Below are positions 1 through 33,575 of a DNA stretch of 33,575 nt, piece after piece. Each line of letters begins with the position of its first letter. The first letter of the stretch is position 1. This DNA is from a virus. Under the pieces are notes generated by a model. That model had not been told where the DNA came from. It ran no database searches and saw only the letters and a program-made list of their open reading frames with translations. The position numbers and the translations under genes were made by a program. The stretch lies in the IMG/VR virus record IMGVR_UViG_3300037502_000552, positions 1 to 33,575 of that record. The stretch is one strand, 5' to 3'.

Positions 1-12
1 AGCCGCGTTACC
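1..12. repeat. Left copy of 12-bp terminal direct repeat (probable cos end)
   Basis: The sequence AGCCGCGTTACC here is repeated exactly as the last 12 bases of the window. When the ends are joined the 12-mer is flanked by TGCG (33560-33563) and CGCA (13-16), a perfect inverted repeat. Lambda-type terminases cut staggered nicks at a partly twofold-symmetric cosN to make 12-base overhangs. Filled-in overhangs would give exactly this terminal repeat. A chance assembly overlap or a prophage attachment core is the alternative. Confidence 0.75.
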
Positions 13-54
13 CGCATCCTAGTAACAAGTTGGAAGGACCCAACACCGGGGGGC

Positions 55-660
55 CTACCGGAGTCCTCGTCCCACCAAAGATTTGATTGCTCGACCGAAT
101 TCGAGAGGGAATCGCTCGTTCACTATTCTCTGCACCATCTCGTCTAGTTTGTGTTGACGCTTGGCGGTTGGGACATAGGGTCCAAACAGTTTCTTGATGG
201 GCAGTTCGGGTCGGTAGGTCTTGCCCACATTCTTTCCGGTCATAACTTTGCGCTTGGCTCCCCTCCGTCCACCGATAAGGATGAAAACATCGCGCTTTGA
301 GTTGGGCATGGTGGCGATGAATGCGCCTTGATACCGTTGCTTCTTCCCCCATGCTTTGACAGTCACCCCGGTCTTGCTTTGCACCGCGCCCATTTGGTAG
401 AGACTTGCCGACTTCTTGGCGAAATAGATTTCGTAATACTCACGATTCTTTGTCGCCTTCTTCTCGATTATGTATTCGCTTCGCTTGAAGTCCGCAAGAC
501 TCATATTGAAGTCTTTGCGAATCTCCCTGCGTGATTGGCTTGCCGCCGTTGCGCCAACCCTGTTGAGGGCTCGGACTGTTGCCTGTGGAATAAACTTTTT
601 CTCAAGATAGTCCACTTGTCTGGACAAGTCCTTGAGGTTGGACTCGACCGAGATTCTCAT
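55..660 (-). CDS. GpZ-like minor tail / tail completion protein
   Basis: The 201-residue basic protein resembles the prophage minor tail protein Z family. Family members help complete the tail end that meets the head, as gpZ does in lambda. Recognisable parts are an N-terminal alpha-helical stretch containing ALNRVGATAASQSRREI (about residues 31-47) and a central region ending in FILIGGRRGAKRK. The ATG at 660 overlaps the stop of the upstream winged-helix gene as ATGA, so the two are probably translationally coupled. In lambda, Z sits among the head-tail joining genes. Here it is the last gene before the cos junction, on the far side of the map from the tail module unless the genome is circular. 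It would then lie about 280 bp upstream of terS and could belong to the late transcript. The family call is from sequence appearance only. Confidence 0.72.
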   Translation of the reverse strand: MRISVESNLKDLSRQVDYLEKKFIPQATVRALNRVGATAASQSRREIRKDFNMSLADFKRSEYIIEKKATKNREYYEIYFAKKSASLYQMGAVQSKTGVTVKAWGKKQRYQGAFIATMPNSKRDVFILIGGRRGAKRKVMTGKNVGKTYRPELPIKKLFGPYVPTAKRQHKLDEMVQRIVNERFPLEFGRAIKSLVGRGLR

Positions 661-4782: not shown

Positions 4783-5028
4783 TCAGAATGGGATGTCCGA
4801 GGGAATATCTGGGAAAGTTTCTTCCCTGCGAGCTCCTGCCTGCGGCCTGTCATCCTTGGGCCTTGGGTCCGCAAGAGTAAACCATTGCGGGAAAAGGTCG
4901 AGCTTCATCGCCAGATTGCCATTTGGTTTCTGAATAACGATCCCGCATTTGGCCCATCTCTGCTTGGTCTGCCCGTCCGGGGTTTGATACTCGCCTGTTG
5001 CGACCAGAATCTCTTTGTAAACACTCAT
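4783..5028 (-). CDS. Small conserved protein beside the exonuclease (possible ssDNA-binding role)
   Basis: The 81-residue protein starts MSVYKEILVATGEYQTPDG and has a beta-rich core (RWAKCGIVIQKPNGNLAMKLDLFP). The C-terminal tail is proline- and charge-rich and ends DIPSDIPF. A short acidic tail ending in PF is typical of single-strand DNA-binding proteins that dock partners, and the core length is close to a minimal OB fold. It follows the YqaJ-type exonuclease with an ATGA overlap. An SSB-like role is inference from the tail and neighbours; no family was recognised with certainty. Confidence 0.6.
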   Translation of the reverse strand: MSVYKEILVATGEYQTPDGQTKQRWAKCGIVIQKPNGNLAMKLDLFPQWFTLADPRPKDDRPQAGARREETFPDIPSDIPF

Positions 5029-5678
5029 AGTTCCACCATTTCCCTTCTCGTTATCACCTCGAACATGGCCTCGATCTCCGCAAGAAAATCCTTGGCCTCT
5101 TTTTCTACTGCCTCGATTTGCGCGTCGCTCGGATAAAACCGCCGCACAAACAATCTCTGCTCCTCCGGGAGCCTTGGGTCAAAGCTCACAAAGTCGCACC
5201 ATCCCCTTTGCGTGACCGCGCATTGGAGGGTCATCTGGTCAATATGCTCCTCTGGGATTCCTCCGTCGATCACCCATTGCAAGTGCGTCGCCGTCGTCGG
5301 GCATTTGATCTCGATAAGCCCGTCTCCCACTAACCCGTCCGGGGAGGCCCCTAGAAACTCGATAGAAGGGTGCTGGACGAATCCGACATCTGTGACCTTC
5401 CGACCCGTTGCGGCCTCGTATGCGGCCTTTGCGTTGGCCTCCTGATCGGTTCCCCATTGCATTGCGGCGGTGACATATTTGGGAACAATATCCCCGGTCA
5501 TTCTCTCCGCAAGAATTTCGATCTTGAGGTTGCGACGCTCGCTTGAGTCCTCCCCGTTCTTGAGCCGTTTGCGACTTGCCCGCATCCTGCTCCCGGTTAG
5601 GTGTCCGCATCGGGCGTTGAACCATGCCCCATTCAATTGGTGCGGGTTACTCTGCCGTTCCTCTTGGAAATCACTCAT
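5025..5678 (-). CDS. YqaJ/lambda-exonuclease-like recombination nuclease
   Basis: This 217-residue protein has the YqaJ-family core: WFNARCGHLTGSR (about 19-31), MQWGTDQEANAKAAYE (73-88) and FLGASPDGLVGDGLIEIKCP (108-127). D114, E123 and K125 form the PD-(D/E)xK metal site. Family members such as lambda Exo degrade one strand from double-strand ends, and the exposed strand is used by an annealing protein. The ERF protein encoded upstream is the likely partner, giving a Red-like pair. The ATG at 5678 has GGAGG seven bases upstream and overlaps the previous stop as ATGA. Length is close to lambda Exo (226). Confidence 0.88.
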   Translation of the reverse strand: MSDFQEERQSNPHQLNGAWFNARCGHLTGSRMRASRKRLKNGEDSSERRNLKIEILAERMTGDIVPKYVTAAMQWGTDQEANAKAAYEAATGRKVTDVGFVQHPSIEFLGASPDGLVGDGLIEIKCPTTATHLQWVIDGGIPEEHIDQMTLQCAVTQRGWCDFVSFDPRLPEEQRLFVRRFYPSDAQIEAVEKEAKDFLAEIEAMFEVITRREMVEL

Positions 5679-6333: not shown

Positions 6334-6653
6334 GACTGTTTCCTCCCTTTGCATGGATAGTGTTTGCTCAAAATAGCCACGATCAAAACATCTGCGGGCT
6401 CATTGCGGATTTGCGGAGTCCGCTCTAAGGCGACTTGGATCGTGTCGGAGATTTGCCCGATGGTCATTCCGTTTTGCAGGCAGTAGATACTCTGGTCCAA
6501 CCCGTCCGCAACCCCGGTCACATACCCGACCGCAAACATACGGTCCACAATGTTGTCGGACTGGAGCTCCGCGAGAAGTTTGTTTCCAGTCCTAAACTGA
6601 GCATCCGCAGTCCCCGCGAGTAGGACAAGAGCGATTCCCAGAGCGAGCTTCAC
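6330..6653 (-). CDS. Secreted Rap1a/Tai-like protein
   Basis: The chosen start is GTG at 6653, with AAGGAG eight bases upstream and GTGA overlap with the ERF stop. It gives a clean signal peptide, KLALGIALVLLAGTADA, with likely cleavage before QF. The mature part has GYVTGVADGLDQSIYC, TIGQISDTIQVALERTPQ, and ends LSKHYPC. These positions match the Rap1a family, whose best-known members are periplasmic immunity proteins against type VI amidase effectors. The two spaced cysteines could form the family disulphide. A phage copy might protect the infected cell from peptidoglycan attack or delay lysis, but it may only share the fold. Confidence 0.62.
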   Translation of the reverse strand: MKLALGIALVLLAGTADAQFRTGNKLLAELQSDNIVDRMFAVGYVTGVADGLDQSIYCLQNGMTIGQISDTIQVALERTPQIRNEPADVLIVAILSKHYPCKGRKQS

Positions 6654-7204
6654 TTGAGCCGCTCCTTGGCCTCGTCCTTGAGGTCTAGGCATACCGTCCG
6701 CTCCTCGGGCGTGAGCGTCCCCCAGAGGGTTTTGAGGTCATTCAGAGAGGTGAGTCCCGCAAAGACATTCGAGAGGGTCTTGAGACGCTCTGGGTCCACG
6801 GTCTTAGCCTTGGGTTTGGGAGGTGCGCTTGCGGCCTGATTGCCGTCGTCGTCCTCCGGGGCCACGCCAAATGCCGCGCTCAGAGAATAGCGTCGAGCAT
6901 AGGTCATCGCCGAGCCGAATCCCTGCGCGTCGTTCTTGGAGACCGGGACCGCGACCACTCCCGCGGACATTGTTTCCCCAGAGGCGTGGACGATGACCGT
7001 CTCGATTGCCGCGTGGTCCGGGATGTTATGTGAGACCTGACAAAACCAGAGGCCATGTTTGGTGAGCGCGGGCTTGATTGCGTCCACCACATTGCCGAGG
7101 TCCGCATACTTGGTGCGGAAGTGCGGATTGGTCTTGTCTTTTACTGCTCCCTCGATCTCAGGGAATGCCGAGGCCATTGCCTTGGCGAGATTAGCTGAAG
7201 TCAC
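6650..7204 (-). CDS. ERF-family single-strand annealing protein
   Basis: The 184-residue protein has the ERF core: NPHFRTKYADLGNVVDAIKP (about 26-45) and GSAMTYARRYSLSAAFGVAP (97-116) followed by EDDDGN. ERF proteins anneal complementary single strands and, with a YqaJ-type nuclease, carry out phage recombination and circularisation. That nuclease gene lies about 1 kb downstream in the same operon. The start is a GTG at 7204 with GGAG eight bases upstream. The linker after residue 122 (SAPPKPKAKTVDPERL) leads to a short helical C-terminal domain, possibly for protein contacts. Confidence 0.88.
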   Translation of the reverse strand: MTSANLAKAMASAFPEIEGAVKDKTNPHFRTKYADLGNVVDAIKPALTKHGLWFCQVSHNIPDHAAIETVIVHASGETMSAGVVAVPVSKNDAQGFGSAMTYARRYSLSAAFGVAPEDDDGNQAASAPPKPKAKTVDPERLKTLSNVFAGLTSLNDLKTLWGTLTPEERTVCLDLKDEAKERLK

Positions 7205-9264: not shown

Positions 9265-9676
9265 TCGGAACCCTCATTGTTTCGATTGGGCCACCAGTTC
9301 CGGGGTCGTAAAGCATCGCAATCTCGACCGCCTCCTGCGGAGATTTCCCGAGGTGCATTGCCGCAACCGCATAGGGAGCCCCGGTTCCAATAGCCCAGAA
9401 TCGTTCTTTAATAGGGAATGCCAATAAAGACCCGTCATACACATAGAGCGAGTCTTTCCTCAGTTCTAAAACGGTGACATCGCATTCCCCCTCGATCTCA
9501 CCGTTTGCCTCAAGTGCCGCATAAAACTTGAGAATCTGCTCCCAAGTGCCTGCCGCCCCAAATGCGCTCTGCGGTCCAGCCCTGAGTTTGTGAACATTAA
9601 ACATCCACCCGTCGGTTGAGCAACGGGAGTCGGCGGCGATCATTTGATGGTCCAAAGATGCCGCAATCGTTGTCAC
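9242..9676 (-). CDS. HslV/proteasome-like Ntn hydrolase
   Basis: The 144-residue protein starts MTTIAAS. Removal of Met would leave a Thr nucleophile at the N-terminus. The family landmarks follow: AADSRCS (D16), HKLRAG (K30) and FGAAGT (about 39-44). Proteasome beta/HslV proteins use Thr1, Asp17, Lys33 and a GxxG turn, so the catalytic set is present, although the protein is shorter than HslV (about 175). No partner unfoldase is encoded here. The GTG at 9676 overlaps the endolysin stop as GTGA, and GGAGGG lies nine bases upstream. It may process structural proteins or act with host factors; that is inference. Confidence 0.75.
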   Translation of the reverse strand: MTTIAASLDHQMIAADSRCSTDGWMFNVHKLRAGPQSAFGAAGTWEQILKFYAALEANGEIEGECDVTVLELRKDSLYVYDGSLLAFPIKERFWAIGTGAPYAVAAMHLGKSPQEAVEIAMLYDPGTGGPIETMRVPNVRAKSK

Positions 9677-10137
9677 GCCACCAATCCCTCCAGATAAACA
9701 GTTTTTCCGTCCCGCTTTGTTGCGGTGAGAACCTGTTTTTTATTGTCCTCGGCGACATAAGAAACATGGACCCAACCAGAGTCGGGGATTCCGGGCGTGT
9801 AAAACTCAAGAATCACTTGGCGAAAGTCGAGGTTGTCCACGATCCACTTTGCGAGCTCAGCATTGGCGACACCGGGAATCTCAATGTCTGCGGCCTGACC
9901 GCGACAATGATCGGAAGTCTTAGATCCTCCGACCTTGGCATTCACCTCCGGGTGGCGAAAGCCAGAATTGACCTTCACTCCCTTGCCGTAATGATCCCGA
10001 ATGGGTTGCAAGACCTTCTCGCATAAGAGCTTGAGAGAGGCGATTTCAGCCTCTCCGGGAGTGTTATCCATGTCGTGCCGCAGGGCCGTCTCCGACTTGG
10101 TCATCTCTGCGAGGGTGAAGTTCTTGGTCAGATTCAT
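9673..10137 (-). CDS. M15-family peptidoglycan peptidase (endolysin)
   Basis: The 154-residue protein has KVNSGFRHPEVNAKVGGSKT (about 55-74), SDHCRGQAADIEI with zinc ligands H77 and D84, and WVHVSY with H124. This is the zinc D-Ala-D-Ala peptidase (M15_3) fold found in many endolysins and peptidoglycan hydrolases. It would cut cross-link peptides at the end of infection. There is no signal peptide, so release needs the neighbouring holin. The ATG at 10137 overlaps the holin-like gene's stop as ATGA. Length is normal for a single-domain endolysin. Confidence 0.86.
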   Translation of the reverse strand: MNLTKNFTLAEMTKSETALRHDMDNTPGEAEIASLKLLCEKVLQPIRDHYGKGVKVNSGFRHPEVNAKVGGSKTSDHCRGQAADIEIPGVANAELAKWIVDNLDFRQVILEFYTPGIPDSGWVHVSYVAEDNKKQVLTATKRDGKTVYLEGLVA

Positions 10138-10565
10138 TTCATCAGTTCCTTAATCTTGTTGTCCTTCTCTTTCGAGCCTGCGCTCGATCCAAAGTAATAG
10201 CCCAAAACCATTGTGACCGCAGAGGTGAGTGCGCCCAAGACATAGATCAAAATGTCCTTTGAGTCCGCATCAACATCCACAAAAATGATGACCCCAAACA
10301 GAATGAAGGTCAGGCCAACAGTCCCGAGGGCGAGGATCGGTGTAACAATTTTGTTAATAAATGGGGCCGCATCGCTTGTCGCGATCTCGATCTCCCTGCG
10401 GCGCGCAGAGTCCATTTCCTTAGTCATCGCCTCCAATTCGGCAAGTTGGCCCTTCTGGGCCATTTCCATGAGACTCGCCTGTGCCTTGGCCTTGGCCTCT
10501 GGGTCCGGTAAAACCTTGTCCAGCACCTTCTCTCCGATGGAGAGGATCGCTCCGATTGGCAACAT
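10134..10565 (-). CDS. Holin candidate (3TM GTA-holin family)
   Basis: The 143-residue protein has an N-terminal amphipathic segment, a charged helix (about 20-60), and two to three hydrophobic segments: IVTPILALGTVGLTFILFGV and ILIYVLGALTSAVTMVLGYY. It ends with the tail GSSAGSKEKDNKIKELMK. The layout matches the holin family first noted in gene transfer agents, where the tail reads YFGSSxGSxxKd. It would form membrane lesions that release the adjacent endolysin. The ATG at 10565 has GGAGG seven bases upstream and overlaps the previous stop (TAATG). Confidence 0.78.
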   Translation of the reverse strand: MLPIGAILSIGEKVLDKVLPDPEAKAKAQASLMEMAQKGQLAELEAMTKEMDSARRREIEIATSDAAPFINKIVTPILALGTVGLTFILFGVIIFVDVDADSKDILIYVLGALTSAVTMVLGYYFGSSAGSKEKDNKIKELMK

Positions 10566-12163: not shown

Positions 12164-12631
12164 TTAATGGCGAGCAAACTCGCCGTGGAATTTAGCCCGT
12201 GCCTCTTGAGCAACAAGCCCCGCTAGTTCTACATCGTCAAAGTAACCAAATACACGGCGCTTCCGGTCAATGCTAATTTGCACCGTCCATTTGTTCATTG
12301 CTGAGTGCCAATGAACATTTTTGTACCCAGACTTATTGTTCTTGTGAGCCACTCGATTCAAACAATTTTGTTGCTGAGTTACTTCCCGCAAGTTCTCAAT
12401 GCGATTGTTTGCTCGGTCATTGTCAATGTGGTCAATGATCTTTGGCAAGTAACCCTTGTGGTACAAAAACACCAATCTATGCAATTTTTGATTTACACCG
12501 CAAATGTTAACCCTGACATATCTTTGGGTTCCTTTAATTGGCGTTTCAGTAACCATTGCACCGTTTGACAGTTTGTAAAAATGACCGTCACAGTACTCGA
12601 CTTCTTTTTTCATGGCTTCCTGAGTAAGCAC
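12164..12631 (-). CDS. HNH/AP2-type homing endonuclease
   Basis: The 155-residue protein has LHRLVFLYHKGYLPKIIDHI, then DNDRANNRIENLREVTQQQN, which is the HNH_3 nuclease motif. The C-terminal AP2-like DNA-binding domain is YKNVHWHSAMNKWTVQISID followed by GYFDDVELA. The GTG at 12631 has AAGGAG five bases upstream; an ATG at 12613 with AGGA is also possible. It is AT-rich compared with neighbours and lies between two tail-fibre genes, a common site for free-standing homing endonucleases. Insertion here may explain the odd start of the following gene. Confidence 0.85.
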   Translation of the reverse strand: MLTQEAMKKEVEYCDGHFYKLSNGAMVTETPIKGTQRYVRVNICGVNQKLHRLVFLYHKGYLPKIIDHIDNDRANNRIENLREVTQQQNCLNRVAHKNNKSGYKNVHWHSAMNKWTVQISIDRKRRVFGYFDDVELAGLVAQEARAKFHGEFARH

Positions 12632-31085: not shown

Positions 31086-32906
31086 CTAACGCCAAGACTG
31101 CACAAATCCACCAGTTTGCCGAGGATTTCTTTTCTGGGTCGCAGACTGTTTCGGTTCGGGCGGGTTTTCATGCCGCATAAACTCCCGGTCTGCCATCGCG
31201 TTAATGTTTAAGTTGAGTATTGAAAAAGCCGCCATAGAATAGACTCGTACATCGAGAGCCTCATTTCGAGGGCGAACCTTTGTCCATTCGCGCCGTGCGA
31301 ACCCCTTGTGGTATCTGGTGACCAATTTTTCTGCGGTCAATTGTCGGAAATACTCGTCGCTCCGCGAGTGCGGGAAGTGCATATACCCCGGCCCCGGTTC
31401 CACAATCCGCATCCAAGAAAAGAGAACATCCTTGGCGGTATCCACGCCAACCGGAAACAGTTTGATCTTGCCAATGTTGTTGCGGGACGGTTTGCCGACT
31501 AGCGGTTTGCCCTCGCCTCCCACGCCCTTGATCGCAAAAATGCGATTGCCTTCTCTGGGGCGAACATAGTTGTAGACCGAATTCGTATGATGCCCGCCAG
31601 AGTCCACGCAAGCGGCCCGCACCGTGAGAATCTTCCCATCTTCCCTCTCGAATTGTTGCTTCAGGATAGAGTCTAGGTCTTGCCAGACCGCAGGACTAGA
31701 GGGGTCGCCATAAAGGGTCCGGTAGTCCAAAGACCAAGACTCCTGATCTCGGCCCCACCCGACAATCTCGACCTCCAGTCGGTCGTCTTGGCAGTCCACC
31801 CCGGCAGTCAGCAGAAGAATGCCTTGATCGAGTTGCGGCCCAAACTCCTCCCGCCTCTCCGCAAGTTGGAAGTCATCCACGGATTCGCCCTGCTCCTCCC
31901 AAGTCTCCCCGAGGTAAGTGTTGACCCAGACCCGCAGGGTGGCGGGTTGTTTCTTGGCCTCCAGAAACTCCCGCACCGCCGCATCGAGAGGGGTCCACGG
32001 GGAATATAGGCCAGAGAGGTGAAATCCCGCCACGCGCTTAAACTCTGCGGTCGCCTGCCATCTGCCGTGCCTGATCGCCCGGACTCGCTCTGCATCCGTC
32101 CAGAGGGCTCCACACTCCTCGCAGGCGTATTGGGCCGTCTCGGGTTTGTCTTGCTCCCAAGAGACCGAGGACCACTTCAGGGATTGCTCATGCTTGCAAT
32201 GCGGGCAGGGAACGAAATAGTGTCGCTTGTCCGACTCCTCGAATGCCGCCTCGATGCGCGAGTTTCCCTTGTTGGTCGGGGTCGAGAATAGACCGATGCG
32301 CCGATTCCAGAAGGTCGAGGCCCTCTTGCGGGCCAGAGAGACAGGATCACCCTCTGATCCTGCGGAGACCGGATAACGGTCTACCTCATCGCAAAGAACG
32401 ATTCGCACCGGGCGCGAGGCGAGAGACGAAGGACTGTTTGCACCGCAGGCCGTTATATGCCCACCGGGGAAAATCTTGTGAAGGGTCGTGTTCCCAGAGT
32501 CGCGGGCGCGAGGGTCTTTCACCAGACCTTGCAATTGTGGCGTGTCGCGCAACATAGGCGCGAGTCGGTCCTTGGACCATGTCTGGGCCATATCGAGGGT
32601 CGGTTGGACCACCAGCATCGGGGACGGGTCTTGGGCGACATGGTAGCCAATGACATTGTTGAGAATCTCGGTCTTGCCGACTTGGGCCGAGGACATTACG
32701 ACGACCATCTCGACCGCAGGGTCGGAGAATGCGTCCATGATCCCCCTCTGATACTCGGCCCGACTGGTCAACCATTGTCCGGGCTCCGCACTCGCCTCTG
32801 GACTGAGTTTGCGTTCCCTATCCGACCAGTCCGAGACCTTGAGATCAGGCGGTGGCCTGAATGCTCTCAGGGCCTTGCGGACTAATGTCTCGATCTGAGA
32901 GTTCAT
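31086..32906 (-). CDS. terL: Terminase large subunit (lambda GpA-like)
   Basis: The 606-residue protein has VVMSSAQVGKTEILNNVIGY (Walker A at about 72-80), VRIVLCDEVDRYP (Walker B near 167-179), GLFSTPTNKG, a zinc-ribbon CPHC (234-237) with CEEC (262-265), and a nuclease segment LTAGVDCQDDRLEVEIVGWG (D371). The layout matches phage lambda GpA, which pumps DNA and cuts staggered cos ends. The ATG at 32906 has GAGG six bases upstream and overlaps terS by 62 nt. The GpA type predicts cohesive ends, which agrees with the terminal 12-bp repeat. Confidence 0.93.
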   Translation of the reverse strand: MNSQIETLVRKALRAFRPPPDLKVSDWSDRERKLSPEASAEPGQWLTSRAEYQRGIMDAFSDPAVEMVVVMSSAQVGKTEILNNVIGYHVAQDPSPMLVVQPTLDMAQTWSKDRLAPMLRDTPQLQGLVKDPRARDSGNTTLHKIFPGGHITACGANSPSSLASRPVRIVLCDEVDRYPVSAGSEGDPVSLARKRASTFWNRRIGLFSTPTNKGNSRIEAAFEESDKRHYFVPCPHCKHEQSLKWSSVSWEQDKPETAQYACEECGALWTDAERVRAIRHGRWQATAEFKRVAGFHLSGLYSPWTPLDAAVREFLEAKKQPATLRVWVNTYLGETWEEQGESVDDFQLAERREEFGPQLDQGILLLTAGVDCQDDRLEVEIVGWGRDQESWSLDYRTLYGDPSSPAVWQDLDSILKQQFEREDGKILTVRAACVDSGGHHTNSVYNYVRPREGNRIFAIKGVGGEGKPLVGKPSRNNIGKIKLFPVGVDTAKDVLFSWMRIVEPGPGYMHFPHSRSDEYFRQLTAEKLVTRYHKGFARREWTKVRPRNEALDVRVYSMAAFSILNLNINAMADREFMRHENPPEPKQSATQKRNPRQTGGFVQSWR

Positions 32907-33348
32907 TGAGTGCCTCTAGTATTGCCCCCTTCAAGACCGCTTTGACCTCGGTGAGGTTTTCTGCGGCAAACACCTCGGGGGAGGTCTTGGCTGGAATGCT
33001 CAACAATTTGGCCCGACAGTTTGCGACCAGTTCCGTCCATGTCTTTTCGATCTCCTCCATCTCGACCAGAGTCCCGCGCACCTTCTCCAGTTCGACCTCG
33101 GCGAGCGCGGCCTCTGCCGCCATCTTCCGACGCTTGGCCTCTTCAAGATCGATGAGGTCATCATTGCCAATCAGGTTGTCGAGGTTTCTGCGGTTAATCC
33201 ACGCAATCACCTCCGAGGTCTCATAGTCTGATCCAGCCCGACCGCGTCCTTTGCGGATCACCGGGAAGTCCGGATTCTTTTGCATCTGCGTTAACCACTC
33301 CTCAGATTTCCCGAGGATTGCCGCCAATTGGTTTTTGTTGACAATCAT
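32845..33348 (-). CDS. terS: Terminase small subunit (lambda Nu1-like)
   Basis: The protein is 167 residues from the ATG at 33348. It starts MIVNKNQLAAILGKSEEWLT, close to lambda Nu1 (MEVNKKQLADIFG). The N-terminal winged helix-turn-helix has FPVIRKGRGRAGSDYETSEV and a helical linker rich in EAKRRKMAAEAALAEVELEK. The C-terminal part would contact TerL. An in-frame start at 33402 would add 18 residues but lacks the Nu1-like beginning. Nu1 binds repeats next to cos; here the gene starts about 215 bp from the cos junction, as in lambda (about 190 bp). GAGA precedes the ATG. Confidence 0.9.
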   Translation of the reverse strand: MIVNKNQLAAILGKSEEWLTQMQKNPDFPVIRKGRGRAGSDYETSEVIAWINRRNLDNLIGNDDLIDLEEAKRRKMAAEAALAEVELEKVRGTLVEMEEIEKTWTELVANCRAKLLSIPAKTSPEVFAAENLTEVKAVLKGAILEALNELSDRDISPQGPESIQATA

Positions 33349-33563
33349 TCTCAATAAAAAACGGGCGATTTTTTTGGAGCAAAAACAAACAATTTCCCAC
33401 AATGCGAGATTGTTTGACTGTTTGAATCTTGCTCAAAGTTTGACCAGTTTTGCATCGTTGTAAGTGATTGATTTTGTTTGTAAATTTTTGCGTTGTTTTT
33501 GGGCGTTAGTTTTGCTCTATCAAAAGTCTTAAGTTGATCGTCTATCACTATCTGAAAATTGCG
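33349..33563 (-). other. Non-coding cos-adjacent region (candidate cosB)
   Basis: The 215-bp AT-rich interval between terS and the cos end has no convincing gene. GTTTGA occurs at 33412-33417, 33420-33425 and 33438-33443, extended as GTTTGACTG, GTTTGAATC and GTTTGACCAG. These are candidates for terminase-binding R sites; a bent AT-rich stretch (33470-33500) could bind IHF. Spacing and base composition match lambda's cosB role, but the repeats are unlike lambda's R sequences. Confidence 0.5.
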
Positions 33564-33575
33564 AGCCGCGTTACC
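33564..33575. repeat. Right copy of the 12-bp terminal repeat (probable cos end)
   Basis: Identical to bases 1-12. It is preceded by TGCG, which with CGCA at 13-16 makes an inverted repeat across the joined junction. This supports a real biological end instead of a random assembly overlap, which would normally be longer. Confidence 0.75.

Follow-up and report, generated by a model that had tools for sequence, protein, structure and literature searches.

Evidence for a cos site of lambda-type layout at the ends of a tailed-phage genome record

The IMG/VR virus record IMGVR_UViG_3300037502_000552 begins and ends with the same 12 bases. This raises the question of whether its limits are the physical ends of a virion chromosome. 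We analysed the whole record, a stretch of 33,575 bases that we call the window. It very likely (probability about 0.94) represents the entire linear chromosome, as packaged in the virion, of a tailed phage with cohesive ends, whose cos site is cut by a GpA-type terminase. Closed at the repeat, the genome measures 33,563 bp. A first-pass annotation had proposed a cos with 12-base ends, a lambda-like spacing to terS and a Nu1/GpA-type terminase. That proposal is confirmed in substance: the mechanism is an ordinary one and is well supported, also by the contig ends of relatives. Our analysis adds the evidence from cosQ and a TAG-containing block, the ends of independent contigs, the rejection of a proposed terminase-binding repeat, and a variation between 12 and 13 bases in which the right nick stays 12 bp from the block.

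The terminal repeat and adjoining genes

The minus strand carries the main genes, and the genome is accordingly read right to left. The chromosome begins GGTAACGCGGCTCGCAATTTTCAG on the coding strand and finishes ...GGGTCCTTCCAACTTGTTACTAGGATGCGGGTAACGCGGCT. The features at the joined ends are the following.

55 to 660, minus strand: final gene before the right end, tail-completion or minor tail protein Z-like (Pfam Minor_tail_Z 1.3e-13, phrog_27 1.1e-20)
32 to 41, minus strand: cosQ-like GGGTCCTTCC; on the coding strand its end is 19 bp ahead of the left nick
1 to 12, minus strand: cosN, copy terminating the chromosome on the right (identical 12 bases), with the right nick after the last base
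33564 to 33575, minus strand: cosN, copy opening the chromosome on the left, with the cohesive-end sequence 5'-GGTAACGCGGCT-3' on the coding strand
33542 to 33551, minus strand: conserved block ATAGTGATAG (family CTAGYGACAG), starting 12 bp past the right nick, at the place of lambda I2
33517 to 33528, minus strand: GACTTTTGATAG, a candidate site for TerS binding close to where lambda has R3
32845 to 33348, minus strand: terS, small terminase subunit of 167 aa with an N-terminal helix-turn-helix-type region
31086 to 32906, minus strand: terL, GpA-type large terminase subunit (GpA_nuclease 2e-97, GpA_ATPase 2e-94)

The repeat, AGCCGCGTTACC at positions 1-12 and 33564-33575, is exact and confined to the two termini; it is absent elsewhere in the window, even with one mismatch. 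The chance that two given 12-mers are identical is 4^-12, or about 6e-8. With the ends joined, the coding (minus) strand reads ATGCG^GGTAACGCGGCT^CGCAA, where carets mark the nicks. The TGCG/CGCA inverted repeat described earlier is present at this junction with 4-bp arms. These arms are weak evidence alone, since the right arm varies among relatives (CGC, CCC, CAC or CTC). CG base pairs stand beside both nicks, as ...GCG^GG...CT^CGC... in the window and ...ACG^GG...CT^CGC in lambda.

The nick lies 227 bp from the terS start codon (33346-33348, minus strand). Measured from the inner end of the overhang, the distance is 215 bp, which matches the value of about 215 bp given before. TerS matches the terminase small subunit family phrog_57 at 9.9e-33. 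Its match to Pfam Nu1 is weak (1.4e-4, 22 bits, below the cut-off of 30). The domain matches of terL bear out its description as GpA-like. From cos, the genes run in the order TerS, TerL, head-tail protein and portal.

Prophages are flanked by short direct repeats, and a terminal 12-mer could be the attachment-site core of an excised or integrated one. We give this explanation virtually no weight: no tyrosine-family phage integrase was found in the record, and the repeat sits between the tail-completion gene and terS, with no host flank.

Elsewhere the window encodes an HNH_3 endonuclease amid the tail genes (12164-12631, minus strand), YqaJ (5025-5678), ERF (6650-7204), an M15 peptidase (9673-10137) and a GTA-type holin (10134-10565). 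The first 20 kb have no close DNA relatives among deposited phages.

Ends of related contigs

Short end overlaps do occur in contigs, and the record alone gives no proof of physical ends; the 12 bases might be a circularising leftover or a short repeat at a contig break. The overlaps that assemblers usually leave are far longer than 12 bases. A scan of IMG/VR with TerL yielded 80 related loci, and their independent contig ends bear directly on the point. Exactly at the homologous GGT, 24 contigs begin, and 3 begin one base earlier; 13 contain an intact cos internally, and 40 begin further downstream or were not placed. An assembly artefact is very unlikely, given that the 24 contigs sharing a start base come from many samples, that end repeats measure 12 or 13 bases according to the local sequence, and that the ends are placed within a cosQ-cosN-terS layout.

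The nearest relative (L001, TerL 90% identical) starts GGTCACGCGGCTCGCA, at exactly the homologous base. It covers the left end only, and for the right end of the window there is a single observation. A second relative (L002, TerL 88%) spans the site. It reads ...GGGTCCTGTC...GGCGCGGGTAATTCGCGACCCCG, with a gene on one side and, on the other, a methyltransferase-like insertion that precedes terS. Because L002 continues through the site, the sequence beyond is the other side of a cos and not unrelated DNA. Related genomes running past these positions into unrelated sequence had been named beforehand as evidence against a cos; in our comparison, relatives stop at the same base or enter the same cosQ-cosN layout. 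The insertion, an extra gene that is DNA methyltransferase/ParB-like by sequence, lies between cos and terS in L002 (5434-6759), L006, L011, L025, L031, L060 and others. Where it is present, the distance from cos to terL grows from about 0.6 to about 1.8 kb.

Six contigs, including the window, have both ends at cos. The repeat is 12 bases long in the window and 13 in the other five (L047, 23,401 bp; L008, 32,243; L123, 27,994; L139, 31,232; L246, 25,454). The right end of L008 carries an additional A at a position where the template reads C, and the left end of L123 is preceded by an additional T where the template reads G. Both fit A-tailing of end-repaired DNA; L008 also has an additional A at its left end, and this one does not fit.

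To collect right ends, we used a pattern that halts nine bases into the site, so that overhang length was not presupposed. The pool comprised all loci fetched with this pattern and with two others that were written to end at the expected base. Counted as distinct contigs, 6 right ends fall 12 bases and 11 fall 13 bases after the left nick, a proportion that is not a frequency estimate because two of the patterns presuppose the end base. The exceptions are one end at 14, with an untemplated final A, and one at 41. The 12-base ends read GGTAATTCG(G/A)AC, and the 13-base ends GGTnAyKCGCGA(C/G/T). The GGTAACGCGGCT of the window is a 12-base form.

The core GCG^GGTnAyKCG occurs in well over a hundred contigs, and the cohesive end of the window belongs to this widespread type. 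The first-pass annotation was right that the cos sequence differs from that of lambda (4/12 bases identical), but the site is not private to this phage. An exact search of IMG/VR for the window's own 18-base junction gave zero matches, and no relative of the 55-660 gene was confirmed there that could repeat the window's own right end. Among the 20 text matches listed, of 47, for the cohesive-end sequences there was no published occurrence, and those listed look unrelated to phages. A text search found no paper on 13-base cohesive ends at a cos site.

The 5' polarity of the ends follows indirectly, from an overhang that is duplicated rather than lost; polarity and exact nicks are read from assembly ends. 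According to the PhageTerm authors, 5' overhangs are filled in during end repair, which leaves the cohesive sequence at both ends, and 3' overhangs are removed; assemblers then put the ends at the contig limits (PMC5557969). Taken with this behaviour, the duplicated end sequence points to 5' cohesive ends. A terminal repeat alone does not give polarity, and one might think of 3' cohesive ends or of a short direct terminal repeat of another kind, as in T7. Both are extremely unlikely. Lambda GpA terminase yields 5' ends (PMC4669245). Removal of 3' overhangs would leave differing terminal sequences, and the shortest direct terminal repeat cited in the PhageTerm work is 131 bases (PMC5557969).

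Elements on either side of cosN

Physical cohesive ends are further supported by cosQ and the TAG block, two elements that the first-pass annotation does not mention and that are the best added support. The cosQ-like GGGTCCTTCC has its counterpart in lambda GGGTCCTTTCC, which likewise ends 19 bp before its nick. GGGTCCT begins 29 bp before the nick in the window and 30 bp before it in lambda. In nearly all relatives that have this side, GGTnCT is found at a near-fixed spacing (16-20 bp by the measure used).

On the other side, strict CTAGYGACAG is present in 26/41 cos sequences, compared with 0/6080 control windows. Among 171 distinct junctions, TAG forms a sharp peak at positions 26 (43 junctions) and 27 (20 junctions), and lambda carries CTA in the same register (position 25-28). 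TAG is located at 26 in the 12-base forms (21/21 with TAG there) and at 27 in the 13-base forms (17/17); after thinning to <80% identity, 14 and 15 sequences remain (Fisher p = 1.3e-8). This correlation alone is expected, since a one-base indel shifts everything downstream of it. The informative observation concerns the six two-ended contigs, in each of which exactly 12 bp separate the right nick from the ten-base block that follows it: the contig ends shift with the block.

The N15 paper states that termination requires cosQ, cosN and I2 and that both nicks have CG pairs beside them (PMC4669245). By their position relative to lambda, the cosQ-like element and the TAG block would have the corresponding roles. 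We also consider it somewhat probable that the terminase stagger is not fixed at 12 in this large phage group. The left nick would be set by GCG^GGT and the right one by the 12 bp to the TAG block, and one-base changes within cosN would alter the overhang length harmlessly.

Other arrangements exist. A very different group (L112, L117, L121, L127, L129, L133, L138 and L140; TerL about 23-25% identical where matched) carries GGTAATTCGCGACCCC; upstream of it, GGCTCCTGAGGG or GGGCCCCTGAGGG replaces the GGGTCCTTCC cosQ. In L143, L148, L150, L199, L210, L235 and L249, the cosQ-cosN motif is found 4.5-6 kb before a GpA-like terL and does not adjoin it.

GTTTGA repeats between cos and terS had been suggested as terminase-binding sites. 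The copies are present (33412, 33420 and 33438), but comparison with two relatives does not support the suggestion. In L001, whose DNA is 80% identical over the region, the coding strand has TCAAAA, ATAAAC and GTCTTG where the copies would stand, and 0/3 copies are kept. L005 has a very similar TerS N-terminus, 69 bp from the nick, and the whole GTTTGA stretch is absent from it. The cosB comparison, in which GTTTGA is not conserved, leaves one R3-like candidate in the window, GACTTTTGATAG with the element CTTTTGATAG. As a lead, this is a better candidate for the TerS site than GTTTGA. The pattern [CG]TTTTnnT occurs at a fixed spacing from the TAG block in 8 sequences, including the window, that have the same type of TerS N-terminus. 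A similar T-rich stretch is found at nearly the same place in some relatives with another gene after cos. In L049, L053, L033 and L042, 38-57 bp separate the nick from the start of the first long ORF, whose N-terminus is of a proline/arginine-rich GRPP type rather than a helix-turn-helix; so short a gap leaves no room for a lambda-like cosB.

The elements suggest how the ends would be made. A GpA-type terminase would introduce staggered nicks at cos and thereby produce complementary 12-base 5' extensions. These would anneal after injection to give a circular genome, and late in replication the concatemer would again be cut at cos. TerS would anchor the enzyme on the terS side of cos, while TerL would nick both strands of cosN and package toward terL and the portal. 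The terminating cut would be directed by cosQ, cosN and the block after cosN.

Comparison with known phages

The site shares with lambda the 12-base overhang, a GGGTCCT cosQ with 19 bp from the end of the GGGTCCTTYC run to the nick, CG beside both nicks, CTA/TAG at 25-28, and adjoining genes for terS and a GpA-type terL. As differences, the comparison gave one R3-like candidate but no evidence for the R3-IHF-R2-R1 cosB of lambda, and compact relatives have as little as 38-72 bp between the nick and the first long ORF. The 12-base repeat agrees with the 12-base 5' extensions by which lambda-like cohesive ends are defined (PMC4669245), the 5' polarity being indirect, from the duplicated ends. 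Of the lambda-type layout, the window has cosQ upstream, CG at the nicks and TerS and GpA TerL beside cos; judged by position, the conserved block stands in the place and register of I2. The window has a cos of lambda type by layout and a terminase that is GpA-type by sequence; with 4/12 bases identical, it does not have a lambda-like cohesive end in the strict sense.

For Serratia phage vB_SspM_BZS1, 12-base 5' cohesive ends were determined by PhageTerm, from reads, and by PCR (PMC7556043). It resembles the window in its GpA TerL (43% identical), in GGGTCCTTCC upstream and in CTAG downstream. It differs in being a myovirus and in its overhang, GCATTGCGCGCC, and its two nicks, as published, are shifted by one base to the right relative to the register of the window's group, a point against our reading.

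The closest cultured relatives are Roseobacter phages of the CRP-822 type (TerL 61-63% identical, capsid 43-48%, same gene order), with 63% identity to the TerL of CRP-811 and CRP-823. The best matches of TerL and capsid, two of the three hallmarks of this type (TerL, capsid, DNA helicase), are CRP phages. In CRP-406, the order minor tail, cos, terS is the same and cos is recognisable; with the junction GGTAATTCGGAC^CCCG, it should have 12-base 5' ends, as expected from the TAG register. In contrast to the window, these phages have circular records and differing cos sequences, and a search of the text of the paper on them found no description of termini or cohesive ends (PMC12629253). Among the cultured GpA phages checked (Arya, S-CBS1 and Bas97), the records of Arya and S-CBS1 contain GGGTCCTTCC close to their end but have no obvious start at a cosN of the GCG^GGTnAyKCG type.

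In genome_contigs, TerL relatives are mostly MAG contigs. The best one (81% identical to the TerL of the window) lies at the end of a scaffold from an Akkermansiaceae MAG (L297 1-600, JAGYIT010000017.1, 582 kb), which ends a few dozen bases from the phage cos end and may be a joined phage contig or a prophage. The host is not settled by this match.

Although this record has no long repeat at its ends, our results identify it as a complete chromosome whose physical ends are known. The combination of cosQ, GCG^GGTnAyKCG and the TAG block provides a rule for recognising complete genomes of cos phages among metagenome contigs, and the rule covers uncultured relatives of marine Roseobacter phages. 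The variation between 12 and 13 bases, with a right nick tied to the block, makes the positioning of nicks by GpA-type terminases testable.
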